Source: Thermoplasmataceae archaeon (GTDB taxonomy: Archaea > Thermoplasmatota > Thermoplasmata > Thermoplasmatales > Thermoplasmataceae). From it: DNA of 64,000 nucleotides. Both the position numbers and the translations under genes were made by a program. This document shows positions 1,880-6,828 of this stretch, in pieces. The DNA lies in contig JAVYSB010000003.1 of NCBI GenBank assembly GCA_038729425.1, positions 137,192-201,191 of the forward strand. Direction: 5' to 3'. Below the pieces are notes generated by a model, which worked only from the letters and a program-made list of their open reading frames with translations, searched no databases and was not told the DNA's origin. Within the stretch, counting starts at the first letter, position 1. Every line of letters starts with the position of its first letter.

Positions 1880-2410
1880 ATGCCTCAAAGAATTGAACTG
1901 ACATTTGTGTACCTGAGAGAGGACGACCCGTCAAAATCCACTATGAAGAAACTGGAACGATTTCACCTTGCAAGGAGAATCAACGGCAGAAATTTTGGCA
2001 GGAAAGTGACGCTGACTCCATATGCGGGCTCATATATCAGAAGAAATGACTCTGAGCTTGTATCAAGGTACGGCCTATGTGTGATTGACGGATCGTGGGC
2101 AAAGATAGAGGGGATAAAGAAATATAAAATAGAAAACGGCAGAAGAATCCCTGCCTTGCTGGCTGCAAATCCTGTTAATTTTGGCAAGCTTGAGATACTC
2201 TCCTCTGTGGAGGCACTGGCCGCTGCGCTTTTTATAATTGGTAACACGAATATTGCAGAAACTATTCTGAATAAATTCAAATGGGGACCGAATTTTCTGG
2301 TTCTAAACAGAAACCCTCTCCATGAATACTCGGAATGTAAGTCAGATGATGAAGTAAAAAGTGTAGAGTTGGAGTATTTTGCAACAAAAGAGAGCAAGAA
2401 AACTGGTTGA
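1880..2410 (+). CDS. tsr3: rRNA aminocarboxypropyltransferase Tsr3 family
   Basis: Archaeal homologue of Tsr3, which moves the 3-amino-3-carboxypropyl group of S-adenosylmethionine onto a modified uridine in the small-subunit rRNA. The 176-residue protein shows the family signatures: GLCVIDGSW (about residues 68-76), the loop around PALLAANPVNFGK, then SSVEALAAALFI and KWGPNFLVLN. The N-terminal region is short, as in archaeal members. It follows pyrG divergently after about 275 bases in which I see no gene. The product is a cytoplasmic rRNA-maturation enzyme. Length and motifs agree with an intact gene. Confidence 0.88.
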   Translation: MPQRIELTFVYLREDDPSKSTMKKLERFHLARRINGRNFGRKVTLTPYAGSYIRRNDSELVSRYGLCVIDGSWAKIEGIKKYKIENGRRIPALLAANPVNFGKLEILSSVEALAAALFIIGNTNIAETILNKFKWGPNFLVLNRNPLHEYSECKSDDEVKSVELEYFATKESKKTG

Positions 2411-2418
2411 ATTCTGCG

Positions 2419-3837
2419 TCATGTTTTCTCCGCCCATTCACCATTTCTGAGTTCAAAAATGCCTGAACTATATTGCGAGATAATTTTCATTATGCCATTC
2501 CTGAATTCAATTGGAATGAGTTGACCCGGACTCTTTTCCACATCCAGAAGGTGAATGCCCGTAACGTGACTCTTTGTTGGATTGCCGTGCTCAATAACCA
2601 GTTTCCTCAAGTATGCCATTTCGTCAGTGTCGAGGCGCATCCTGACTGATTCTACACGCTCCCTGAGGTCATCATCAGAAATTTTGCCATAGCAAATGTC
2701 GGCAGGATCCCCACCAGCACTATGCACAAACATAAGAATTCCGAGACATTTTGAACATTTCCCGCAAGGAACTATTTTTCCATTTTCATAGTGACATGAA
2801 TGACAAGATCTCTGCAGGGAAAAGAGTTCCGGATACCTGTTGACAAGTATCCTTTCAACAACATTGCCAAAAACTGGGTATACCACTGATGTCAGTACAG
2901 CATTTATGCCAATCTTTTTGAGATAATCACTCATAATACGGTTGAAGTCAGTACTCTGATCGAAAACACCAAAATAATGCTTCATACCGTGAAAATCTGG
3001 CATGTCCCTAGGATCATCAAACTCATCCCCGAGCAATATAGTGGATATGCCATGATTTATGACAATGGGTAGTAGGGAGAAGACGTAAACCGGAAATATG
3101 AACAGTTGAATAGGGTATGTGTCTGCCCATCTTGTGATTGCCATTTGGTCAAGGATCCTCACCCGCCTCTGCATGAACTTGTAAAAGCGATCCACGTTTG
3201 ACCATACCTTTACGGTGTCCGGAAAGTGACTGGAGAAATAATCGTATGATGTCTTCGCCGTTATCCAATGTCCGCCGGATTCGTTGAAGAAGAAAGAGAA
3301 GACCCGTGAACCTATCTCCTTCATCATTCCGTAGCTGAGGAGGCTTTCCTTGCCACCGGAAGATAGTACTACCGCATTTCCAGGCACAGGGTGGACATCG
3401 TATCGCTTTCTGGTGGTGCCAGCAATGAGAACCGTTATGCCGTCTGCATTGTGTTCATTGATATCCTCTTCTCCGGGAATATATTCTTTCCGGATGAATT
3501 CATATCTCCTGCGGCATATTTTGTTTATGAATATTTCCCTTGCATTGACCTTGAGAAAGGTTTCCAGAAGGCTCCTGTCCTCTTCTGTTATGGGGAAGTC
3601 GAGGTGAAGTTCTCTGGCAAAATATGTGAAATTTATCGCAGGCATTGTGAGGATGAGCCCTGCAATTCTTTCATCCAATTTCATTGATTCTGAATACGTG
3701 AAAATAATGGTAAACGATTCCGTCAAATTGTCAGACGTAACTGAGATTTTGCCTCTTATGCTCTTACCTGTGATCTCAGGCCTAGAGATCGAGATACGGT
3801 CAAAACTTATTACCCTTTCAGCATAGCTCTCGGGCAT
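2419..3837 (-). CDS. MurL-like PP-loop protein with Cys cluster
   Basis: A 472-residue protein with a PP-loop ATP-pyrophosphatase motif, SSGGKES (159-165), behind an N-terminal domain of about 150 residues. A cysteine cluster follows, CxxC at 345/348 and CxxCxxC at 358/361/364, likely binding metal. The order (N-terminal domain, SGGK[DE]S, acidic GDEFDD segment, C-terminal Cys motif) resembles MurL, the ATP-dependent epimerase that converts terminal L-Glu to D-Glu in a UDP-MurNAc dipeptide, more than asparagine synthetase or QueC. That match is by eye and distant. The start directly abuts the stop of the DUF1611 gene, so it is the last gene of a three-gene operon. Substrate unknown; adenylation of a carboxylate is the likely chemistry. 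Confidence 0.6.
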   Translation of the reverse strand: MPESYAERVISFDRISISRPEITGKSIRGKISVTSDNLTESFTIIFTYSESMKLDERIAGLILTMPAINFTYFARELHLDFPITEEDRSLLETFLKVNAREIFINKICRRRYEFIRKEYIPGEEDINEHNADGITVLIAGTTRKRYDVHPVPGNAVVLSSGGKESLLSYGMMKEIGSRVFSFFFNESGGHWITAKTSYDYFSSHFPDTVKVWSNVDRFYKFMQRRVRILDQMAITRWADTYPIQLFIFPVYVFSLLPIVINHGISTILLGDEFDDPRDMPDFHGMKHYFGVFDQSTDFNRIMSDYLKKIGINAVLTSVVYPVFGNVVERILVNRYPELFSLQRSCHSCHYENGKIVPCGKCSKCLGILMFVHSAGGDPADICYGKISDDDLRERVESVRMRLDTDEMAYLRKLVIEHGNPTKSHVTGIHLLDVEKSPGQLIPIEFRNGIMKIISQYSSGIFELRNGEWAEKT

Positions 3838-4866
3838 CTATCTCGCCAGGATCCTTGATATTACCTTATCAGTAGATCCCAGTGGATCAAAAACCGGGAT
3901 GCCATAACGCTTTTCCAGGCGTAATATTTCTTCTTCGACCTGAGAATCCGTCAGATTCTCCCTGTTCAAGGAAATTGCAATAACTTTTCTGTCTGAAAGA
4001 AGTTCCAGTATGGTTATGTATTTTGAAAGATCGGGAATAGGAAAACTCTCGAAGCCGTCAAAAAAGTGCCTTGCTGGTGCGTGTTGGAGAATTATAGCAT
4101 CGGGTCTGCACGCCCCAATGATCTCAAAACTTCCTGGATAAGCTGGATGCAGGACTGACCCCTGCCCTTCAATAAACATAAATTCTGGTTTCTCCTTTCT
4201 CCAAGCTTCCAGAGTTACGCTTTCCAAGCCGCCTGGAATAAAATCATTTATCATTGAATCTACAACTACAGTATATGGGAAACCCTGCATCCAGGATGTC
4301 TGCCCAGTTCCGATCATAACTGACTTTCTCCCGATGGCGTTAAGCTGGTTGTTAAGTATAATGGCAGTGGTTCTTTTTCCTATTGCGCTGTCAGTGCCCA
4401 ATACCGCGATCCTGAAAGCTGATACCTCTGAGATCCCTCCAGTGAATGGATCCTTGCGATCCCTGAACATTTTCCTTACGTCGATAATACTGGATTTTGA
4501 TTCTCCAGCAATCTTGGAAAATTCAGCGTCATCCGATATGAACTCGTGAAGTCCAGACACCACATCCATCCCAGACCTAAGGGCTTCAGCAATAAATGGT
4601 CTGTATTCATTTGGAAGGAACCCCCCGTCGGTTGCAGCTCCAACTATGAGCGTATCTGCACCTGTCTTCCTAGCTTCAGTGAGGGTTGAGATTATGGGGA
4701 TGCCGTTATTCCTGCCGGTAAGAACAGCCCCGGCATCCTTTCCTGCGTATTTAGAGTCGATGACCGATACGATCCTGTATCTTTTGCTATACCGAATGAG
4801 ACCGTTTGCTGTTTTCCCGTAGGTGGTTGAATATACCCCCTCAGCCAGAATTACTGCGTTACCCAT
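3838..4866 (-). CDS. DUF1611 / DgcN-like P-loop protein
   Basis: Two-domain protein: an N-terminal Rossmann-like part (about 1-125) and a P-loop domain with AVLGTDSAIGKRTT as Walker A, followed by GQTSWMQGF and an EGQGS acidic segment. This is the DUF1611 architecture. One characterised member, DgcN, N-acetylates D-glutamate in a D-Glu catabolic route; others are uncharacterised. I chose the ATG at 4864-4866, which overlaps the preceding gene by 16 bases. A GTG at 4899 is in frame but would overlap by 49 bases. It lies between a PLP enzyme and the MurL-like gene with no gaps, so the three products probably act together. Exact reaction unknown. Confidence 0.72.
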   Translation of the reverse strand: MGNAVILAEGVYSTTYGKTANGLIRYSKRYRIVSVIDSKYAGKDAGAVLTGRNNGIPIISTLTEARKTGADTLIVGAATDGGFLPNEYRPFIAEALRSGMDVVSGLHEFISDDAEFSKIAGESKSSIIDVRKMFRDRKDPFTGGISEVSAFRIAVLGTDSAIGKRTTAIILNNQLNAIGRKSVMIGTGQTSWMQGFPYTVVVDSMINDFIPGGLESVTLEAWRKEKPEFMFIEGQGSVLHPAYPGSFEIIGACRPDAIILQHAPARHFFDGFESFPIPDLSKYITILELLSDRKVIAISLNRENLTDSQVEEEILRLEKRYGIPVFDPLGSTDKVISRILAR

Positions 4867-5819
4867 AGTCTGTTTCGTCCGGTTATCACCAACACACACT
4901 CGCTGTCTCTGCCACGCTTAGACATTATACGAACTGCCGCAGCAAGCGTCGAAGCTGAAGCGGGGAGAGCCTGGACACTCTCTGTCATTTCTATCGTCCT
5001 AGCATACCTTATCATTTCCTCATCCGTGACGTATTCTGCGTATCCTTTGCTCCTGTATATGGCATTAAGTGCCTTCTGGCCGTCAAACGCTTTATAGGAA
5101 ATAAGCGGTTCGTTGACCGAACTTTCCCTCAGTATGGATGGGTTAAGGTCAACAACGCGTTTGATCTGCCTTTTCCATGAGTACACTATCGGGTTACCGT
5201 TAGCTGTGCTTGAAGCTATTAGGGCAGGAAGTGAATCTATGGATCCATGGTTGTACATTTTTACAAATCCGTTGAATACGCCAGACAGCGTAGTGCCGTT
5301 TCCTACCGGAATTGCAAGATACTTCGGAGAATGCCCCAGCTGTTGTACGATCTCGTAGGCGATTTTCTCATATCCCATTATATCCAGATCAGAATTAGCG
5401 GACCCTGGGCTCGAGTCATACCAAGCGTTGTCATTGGCCATGTCACGCATTGCTGATACAGTGTCTTCATATTTTCCTGAAAGCTCAAGTACTTCAGACC
5501 CGTTTGCGAGAATCTCACCCGCACGTTCGTGTGAATAATCCTGCGGCATTGCTACGACCGAATTCAACCCATAGAGTTTAGCATAATATGATATAGATGC
5601 TCCGTAGTTTCCACAGGTTGCCAGCGATATAGTTCTGTATCCCAGCCTCTTAGCCCTGAGCACATGCAACTTGGAAATCCTGTCTTTCTGCGAACCTGTT
5701 GCGTTTGCCCCTTCGAACTTGATAAAAAATTTCTTGAGGCGCAGGTTCCTCTCTAGGTTTACAGCCCTTAAGAAGGGCGTTGAACCTGGCGGTTCTTCCT
5801 CTTCACAAAACTCTTCCAT
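4851..5819 (-). CDS. Fold-type II PLP-dependent enzyme, threonine synthase-like
   Basis: 322-residue member of the tryptophan synthase beta / threonine synthase superfamily. The PLP lysine is K45 in GSQKDR, the substrate-side loop is TCGNYGAS, and the phosphate-binding glycine loop is VGNGTTLSG (about 172-180). It is shorter than true threonine synthase and has GSQK in place of GSFK. It may be a beta-replacement, elimination or racemase-type enzyme acting on a serine or threonine derivative. It is the first gene of the operon with the DUF1611 and MurL-like genes. A TATA-like box at 5871-5878 and a palindrome at 5831-5846 precede it. Fold is secure; substrate is not. Confidence 0.75.
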   Translation of the reverse strand: MEEFCEEEEPPGSTPFLRAVNLERNLRLKKFFIKFEGANATGSQKDRISKLHVLRAKRLGYRTISLATCGNYGASISYYAKLYGLNSVVAMPQDYSHERAGEILANGSEVLELSGKYEDTVSAMRDMANDNAWYDSSPGSANSDLDIMGYEKIAYEIVQQLGHSPKYLAIPVGNGTTLSGVFNGFVKMYNHGSIDSLPALIASSTANGNPIVYSWKRQIKRVVDLNPSILRESSVNEPLISYKAFDGQKALNAIYRSKGYAEYVTDEEMIRYARTIEMTESVQALPASASTLAAAVRIMSKRGRDSECVLVITGRNRLWVTQ

Positions 5820-5830
5820 TTTGTTTCACC

Positions 5831-5878
5831 AAGAACGTAAGTTCTTGTAATTGGGGTAGATACAGTGAGTATTTAAAG
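5831..5878 (-). promoter_or_regulatory. Promoter and palindromic operator candidate of the PLP/DUF1611/MurL-like operon
   Basis: Read on the minus strand, CTTTAAAT (5878-5871) is a good TATA box about 25 bases before a predicted start near 5849. The perfect inverted repeat AAGAAC-GTAA-GTTCTT (5831-5846) would lie just inside the transcript, 12 bases before the ATG at 5819. That placement suits a repressor operator or a small leader hairpin. The repeat is seen; the function is inferred. Confidence 0.5.
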
Positions 5879-5941
5879 GTTTAGTGATAAATCACAGAAA
5901 AAATTTCGCTCGCCGGAGCTAAGTTTTAAAGGGGCTATATG

Positions 5942-5959
5942 TATACTACAATTAGTATA
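5942..5959. repeat. Perfect inverted repeat TATACTA-CAAT-TAGTATA
   Basis: Seven-base arms (5942-5948 and 5953-5959) around a four-base loop, 23 bases after the dtdA stop and upstream of the next operon's promoter. It could end dtdA transcription or bind a regulator. The arms are A+T-rich, so chance is possible. Confidence 0.4.
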
Positions 5960-5982
5960 TATGTGTAATAATATTCATATAT

Positions 5983-6828
5983 TTATATTTCAATTATTTC
6001 CAGGTTCTGATCCCTGGCTATACTGGAAACCATTTCCCTGATGTTTGCTTTCATGCCCTTTCGATCCATGATAAACCCGGCACATTCTGGCGTCATGGAT
6101 ACAGCCTGCCTGATTATATCGGAATTTACTACTTCGCTCTGATATTTGGGAATCATATGCCCAATGTTGACATTATTTTCCAGCGCATAGGTTGTTATCT
6201 TAGGCATGTAGTGCCCCCCTCCAATACCTACGTAGTTCCTGAATTTGTTTCCCCGCCTTTGAAGAATCGAGTCACATACTGCTTTCAGCGCGCCACGATC
6301 TTCCCACTGATCCTTGGTCGTGCCAATCTCTACGAAATAATTCGGGGTTCTAATAAAAGGTCCGTGATGTGTTGCCTCAAAGGTCACGGAAAATGCGTTT
6401 CCTTTGTAGTTATTTCTTATATTCCTTAACGCTTCGGTCATTGCAATGGGATCTGTCATGGAGAGCATTCCCGGGGATCCACCGAGCTGTGCATCGCCGA
6501 AATTTCCTGTTGGATGGACGGTAAGTGACTTTATGTCGGCGGCCGAGGAATGTTTGGAAAGAATGATTATGCCGGTAGAATTTCCTGATCTCTTAGCATC
6601 TTCATCCATACCCTCATAATAGAGGTGTTTCTGTTCGATGAACTTGAGAAGGAAATCGCTCATTATAAATTCATCAGTTACGCTTTCTTTTGGCATAAAA
6701 TTATAATTCCGAACCAGGAAATCGCCCATAGAAGAACTGGCCGGGTCCTCTTTCGAGGCAATGATCAGGGTCACAAGAGGATATGTACTTAACCTTAATA
6801 TTTCTTGACTGTCTCCTTTGAAATACAT
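5983..6828 (-). CDS. dtdA: D-aminoacyl-tRNA deacylase, archaeal type
   Basis: Hydrolyses D-amino acids wrongly attached to tRNA. The archaeal DtdA/GEK1 family is clear from TVHPTGNFGDAQLGG, the metal-site-like FEATHHGPF, VEIGTTKDQW and VGIGGGHYMP. The 281-residue protein is near the family length. The core usually begins at a segment like LVTLIIASKEDPAS, so the first 18 or so residues are an extension. The GTG inside that segment, about 54 bases downstream, is an alternative start. It lies upstream of, and on the same strand as, the PLP/DUF1611/MurL-like operon, separated by 163 bases. Confidence 0.93.
   Translation of the reverse strand: MYFKGDSQEILRLSTYPLVTLIIASKEDPASSSMGDFLVRNYNFMPKESVTDEFIMSDFLLKFIEQKHLYYEGMDEDAKRSGNSTGIIILSKHSSAADIKSLTVHPTGNFGDAQLGGSPGMLSMTDPIAMTEALRNIRNNYKGNAFSVTFEATHHGPFIRTPNYFVEIGTTKDQWEDRGALKAVCDSILQRRGNKFRNYVGIGGGHYMPKITTYALENNVNIGHMIPKYQSEVVNSDIIRQAVSMTPECAGFIMDRKGMKANIREMVSSIARDQNLEIIEI

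Follow-up and report, generated by a model that had tools for sequence, protein, structure and literature searches.

What do three closely packed genes of an archaeon of the family Thermoplasmataceae do together, and does the D-aminoacyl-tRNA deacylase gene beside them belong to the same set? All four genes lie on the minus strand of the window, the 64,000-nucleotide stretch of DNA analysed here. A fold-type II PLP enzyme gene (4851..5819; 322 residues; Pfam PALP, 3.2e-53) is followed by a DUF1611 gene (3838..4866; 342 residues from its ATG, with a GTG at 4899 as a possible longer start) and by a gene for a PP-loop protein (2419..3837; 472 residues, ATG start). The PLP stop and the DUF1611 ATG overlap by 16 bases, the DUF1611 and PP-loop genes abut end to end (TAG directly followed by ATG), and a gap of 163 bases separates the PLP start from the end of dtdA (5983..6828; 281 residues). 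The DUF1611 protein scores above the gathering scores of both of its Pfam domains (DUF1611_C, PF07755, 8e-60, 202.1 bits against 25; DUF1611_N, PF17396, 6.9e-27, 94.1 bits against 22.6), as does the dtdA protein (tRNA_deacylase, PF04414, 3.4e-65, 219.9 bits against 33.6), which also reaches 266 bits with NF003072 (cut-off 272). The coordinates, gene order, overlap and gaps given in a preliminary description of this DNA were all re-found in the open reading frame positions, and its types for dtdA, the PLP gene and DUF1611 agree with the Pfam matches.

The same description had proposed that the four genes form one set, and a neighbourhood survey bears this out for three of them. Of 150 genomes sampled from the class, 24 encode the PP-loop protein, among them all 18 from the window's family; in the phylum sample 58 of 293 do, and there the protein extends into a second class (families f38, f45, f46 and f58). 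A DUF1611 gene adjoins every PP-loop locus of the class sample (24/24), with the PLP gene also present at 23, and it adjoins 38 of 39 close PLP homologues; the exception is G096, whose PLP gene is found away from DUF1611. The three-gene order, which goes far beyond chance, recurs in the second class, and at 15 loci of family f9 the PLP-DUF1611 pair stands without a PP-loop gene. Because the junctions are short or overlapping in nearly all loci, the core genes are probably co-transcribed; PLP, DUF1611 and PP-loop form a real operon. By contrast with these three, dtdA lies directly upstream of the operon in many genomes of family f1 and only within that family; in Thermoplasma it is convergent and two genes away, and it was not adjacent in the f3, f14 and f46 loci. 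As it probably also has a promoter of its own, we ruled it out as a functional member of the operon.

A probable archaeal TATA box of the three-gene operon, TTTAAATA (5870..5877, minus strand), sits in the gap that separates the PLP gene from dtdA, and many relatives have a TTTAAAT-like box about 55–60 bases ahead of their PLP start. Just 5' of the PLP start the window carries a hairpin (CAAGAAC-TTAC-GTTCTTG, 5830..5847, minus strand; z = -2.3). When the predicted 5' leaders of relatives were compared (window 5830-5847 with L034, L001, L036, L037, L041, L044 and L138), other stems were seen in Thermoplasma (ACCAGT/ACTGGT, z -2.1 to -5.9) and no hairpin in Ferroplasma; the stem sequences thus differ strongly between genera. 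The hairpin is possibly a regulatory leader. At the other end of the operon, the immediate neighbour of the PP-loop gene at ten f46/f38 loci (L129 7065-7535 and nine others) is a convergent gene for a RimI-like GNAT acetyltransferase; in the window this position is taken by a Tsr3-type gene (1880-2410, plus strand). In one genome (G148) a degraded second PP-loop copy with in-frame stops (C43:10758-11266, L033) accompanies an intact copy of the operon.

The PP-loop protein itself has no significant match to a Pfam or NCBIfam family, and with QueC (PF06508) it scores 10.8 bits (E = 0.33; gathering score 22 bits). An AlphaFold2 model built from a 26-sequence alignment (pLDDT 92.2, pTM 0.91) retrieved Cap9, QatC and QueC from the PDB with Foldseek (E 2.7e-5 to 6.6e-4, probability 1.00), which predicts a QueC-type fold. 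Akin to these proteins, it has an SGGK-type PP-loop, SSGGKES (residues 159-165; 3343..3363, minus strand), of which S160, G162 and K163 are invariant even in distant homologues, and a C-x(n)-C-G-x-C-x2-C motif of the QueC metal-binding type, C345/C348/C358/C361/C364 (2746..2805, minus strand). The Cys cluster pointed out earlier is thus well conserved: C345, C358, C361 and C364 are invariant across 24 aligned relatives and C348 is nearly so. The protein differs from QueC, QatC and Cap9 in an extra N-terminal domain of about 150 residues, in its score below the QueC gathering threshold and in its operon context. We rejected it as the QueC of this genome, since a true QueC (249.5 bits) is encoded elsewhere, and as an anti-phage QatC/QueC-type defence protein, since PADLOC gave no match for the window protein. 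Searches of plasmids with this protein and a distant homologue found no relatives, and searches of viral contigs found none either.

Its description as MurL-like can be kept in part. MurL (NF041275) is weakly matched by 10 of 24 members of the PP-loop family, is the one NCBIfam family that draws matches from many of them and is favoured over QueC there; the predicted QueC-type fold is compatible with it. The protein is similar in length to MurL (472 against 447 residues), and in intermediate homologues the PP-loop and Cys-cluster regions are collinear with those of MurL (residues 146-355 of L123 align to model positions 132-334). However, the best match, that of the distant homologue L124, has 25 bits (E 5e-6) against a cut-off of 700, no family member comes near that cut-off and the window protein gives no match at all, so that we call it MurL-like and not MurL; moreover, its host lacks murein and no MurD2 neighbour was recognised. 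A second, rarer PP-loop subfamily (LLSCGKDSLL; L123 437-1855 and L124 2916-4151), seen in two f46 genomes only, comes nearer the MurL model than the PP-loop protein of the operon. MurL consumes ATP with Mg, forms AMP and acts one way, from L to D (PMC5808125, PMC8788868). Taken together, the modelled fold, the conserved motifs and the weak MurL signal suggest that the PP-loop protein plausibly adenylates a carboxylate as MurL or QueC does, and that it represents a new enzyme family, predicted to lie between QueC and MurL, that carries no family name.

The DUF1611 protein, with a P-loop GTDSAIGKRT (4369-4398, minus strand) and solved homologues (2g0t, 7xrj, 2obn), is predicted from homology to be DgcN-like and to carry out an N-acylation: it reaches 165.7 bits with the DgcN model NF041892, under the equivalog cut-off of 480. 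In the DgcN-DgcA pathway (NF041892, NF042940), which inverts an N-acylated acidic amino acid, DgcN is annotated as the N-acetyltransferase of D-Glu. Both systems have the same two-domain DUF1611 family in a tight operon, whereas the partners differ, a fold-type II PLP enzyme and a PP-loop protein standing here in place of DgcA; at all sampled f1 loci the neighbours of DUF1611 are the PLP and PP-loop genes, with no adjacent dgcA. Elsewhere DUF1611 adjoins dgcA in Pseudoalteromonas, a dipeptide epimerase in Haladaptatus, an alanine/ornithine racemase on plasmids of Aliiroseovarius and Vibrio (the closest plasmid homologues, 43-45% identity) and an Orr-type racemase (417 bits) in the archaeal genome G037. 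Among 99 DUF1611 loci, an MR_MLE gene lies within 5 kb at 16, against about 1 expected by chance on a rough estimate, and 44 lack all three of the partners searched for in their vicinity. These neighbourhoods are evidence for DUF1611 proteins teaming up with racemases or epimerases of unrelated folds, and they support the earlier proposal of a D-amino-acid or N-acyl-amino-acid theme. The pairs with alanine/ornithine racemases (L187 8848-11219; L188 8869-11207; archaeal L068 5306-6442) appear to be undescribed; like the present operon they place a DUF1611 gene beside one for a PLP enzyme, in their case a racemase in a two-gene operon, and they differ from it in that the racemase is of the Ala_racemase_N (fold III) type and no PP-loop gene was recognised. 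Family f9 has a further DUF1611 gene, which faces an MR_MLE gene and a GHMP gene of the beta-RFAP-synthase family in convergent orientation (TIGR00144, 138 bits, cut-off 113.5; L073 5322-8398, L083 5429-7482 and others).

In light of these neighbours, the reading that we prefer, tentatively and at somewhat less than even chance, is that the operon is a D-amino-acid module of Thermoplasma-type archaea. The PLP enzyme would racemise a small and probably acidic amino acid, or the module would accept one that is already in the D form; the DUF1611 protein, judging from its homology and partners, would N-acylate the D form as DgcN does D-Glu; and the PP-loop enzyme, as its fold and motif reasonably suggest, would use ATP to adenylate the carboxylate that N-acylation leaves free. 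Adenylation would acidify the alpha-proton and lead to a one-way inversion as in MurL, or the activated carboxylate would be coupled to an amine. Against this reading count the lack of a MurL match for the window protein, the 44 of 99 DUF1611 loci without any of the partners looked for, and the coexistence of the PP-loop protein with a nearby MR_MLE epimerase in f46; on the last ground, strict replacement of MR_MLE by the PP-loop protein was rejected as a general rule.

The coupling outcome also figures in the strongest alternative, a route of small-molecule biosynthesis free of epimerisation, in which a non-protein amino acid would be produced by the PLP enzyme and modified by the DUF1611 protein, and the PP-loop protein, acting as QueC or QatC do, would join its adenylated carboxylate to an amine. 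Cap9, QatC and QueC, the top structural matches, form amide-type products; the presence of two nucleotide-binding motifs points to anabolism, and the 15 PLP-DUF1611 pairs that lack the PP-loop gene would fit a detachable tailoring step. We nonetheless regard this alternative as unlikely, since the NCBIfam signal favours MurL over QueC and racemase or epimerase partners of DUF1611 recur.

That the host lacks murein had been taken to mean that the substrate must be new. The argument is weakened because these heterotrophs could obtain D-Glu peptides from the murein of other organisms and because related loci hold an epimerase beside an M14-like gene. In such a salvage route the DUF1611 protein would N-acylate D-Glu, the PP-loop enzyme, in the place held elsewhere by DgcA or an MR_MLE epimerase, would invert it with ATP to N-acyl-L-Glu, a hydrolase would free L-Glu, and the PLP enzyme would take another dietary D- or hydroxy-amino acid. 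Five f46 operons face a convergent set of MR_MLE, M14-like and GNAT genes, in which the MR_MLE gene is L-Ala-D/L-Glu-epimerase-like and the M14-like gene has an HxxE motif, reminiscent of the E. coli MpaA/YcjG route for murein tripeptide (PMC2954226), and an M14 carboxypeptidase gene lies near dgcN-dgcA in Pseudoalteromonas. On the other hand, the f46 gene was assigned to M14 from its motifs, with a Pfam E of 0.18 and a structure model too poor to use (pLDDT 44.7), neither an MR_MLE nor an M14 gene was recognised beside the Thermoplasmatales loci, and recovering Glu at the expense of ATP seems uneconomical, so that we consider this route rather improbable.

The first enzyme of the proposed module is by score a threonine synthase: it reaches 429 bits with NF004996 (equivalog cut-off 266) and shares the fold and PLP-binding motifs of the canonical ThrC encoded elsewhere in the same genome (L096; NF005035, 467 bits). 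It differs from ThrC, however, at residues that are invariant among the operon enzymes (C69, N174, T177, S204, P238, D246 and G247), including an invariant T/S-C-G-N-Y/F-G motif, here CGNYG, that canonical ThrC lacks. Plain threonine metabolism, with a second threonine synthase beside unrelated genes, is in spite of the NF004996 score a very improbable reading given these family-specific residues, the canonical ThrC present both here and in G082, and the almost absolute linkage of the PLP gene to DUF1611 (38/39). The alignment hinted at a loss of the phosphate-binding Arg of threonine synthases, which was dropped as evidence because that column is poorly aligned. The predicted Schiff-base Lys45 (codon 5685-5687, minus strand) and Cys69 (codon 5613-5615, minus strand) are each invariant in 39 of 39 relatives. 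Human serine racemase uses Ser84, paired with Lys56, as its re-face base (PMC6424897, PMC6333871), and Cys69 corresponds to this Ser84 when positions are matched via the xGN motif only. A role of Cys69 as re-face racemisation base is thus suggestive only, because the canonical ThrC of this genome has a Ser at the same position.

Which amino acid might be racemised? Measurements in archaea, Thermoplasma acidophilum included, have shown free D-amino acids, whose physiological role is described as unclear (PMC6047364), and D-amino acids together with a PLP-dependent aspartate racemase have been reported in this species (Long 2001, as cited in PMC6047364). The operon offers a candidate gene for this racemase activity of 2001, which is not known to have been assigned one. 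In G082, which we take to be the T. acidophilum genome, no match was found to PF01177 (Asp/Glu-racemase) or PF01168 (Ala-racemase), the two racemase families covered by the search; racemases of other folds exist, such as the fold-type I Ala/Ser racemase of Pyrococcus. Its five fold-type II PLP genes are threonine ammonia-lyase-like, ThrC-like (L209), TrpB-like, the operon enzyme (C1:23449-24390) and one unannotated gene; in the absence of an Asp/Glu- or Ala-racemase-family gene, the operon enzyme is the leading candidate for the aspartate racemase. The fullest version of the module is an undescribed pathway of archaeal cells without murein: the PLP enzyme would be the aspartate racemase, DUF1611 would N-acylate, the PP-loop protein would stand for a new adenylating family, and together they would make or invert a D-amino-acid conjugate. 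This version we think doubtful as a whole. Either way, the operon, which each of the family's 18 sampled genomes contains, names three testable genes for archaeal D-amino-acid chemistry, including the new PP-loop enzyme family. In G096, the PLP gene that has parted from DUF1611 is convergent with a gene resembling APC-type amino-acid permeases (L099 884-2476 and 2494-3423).
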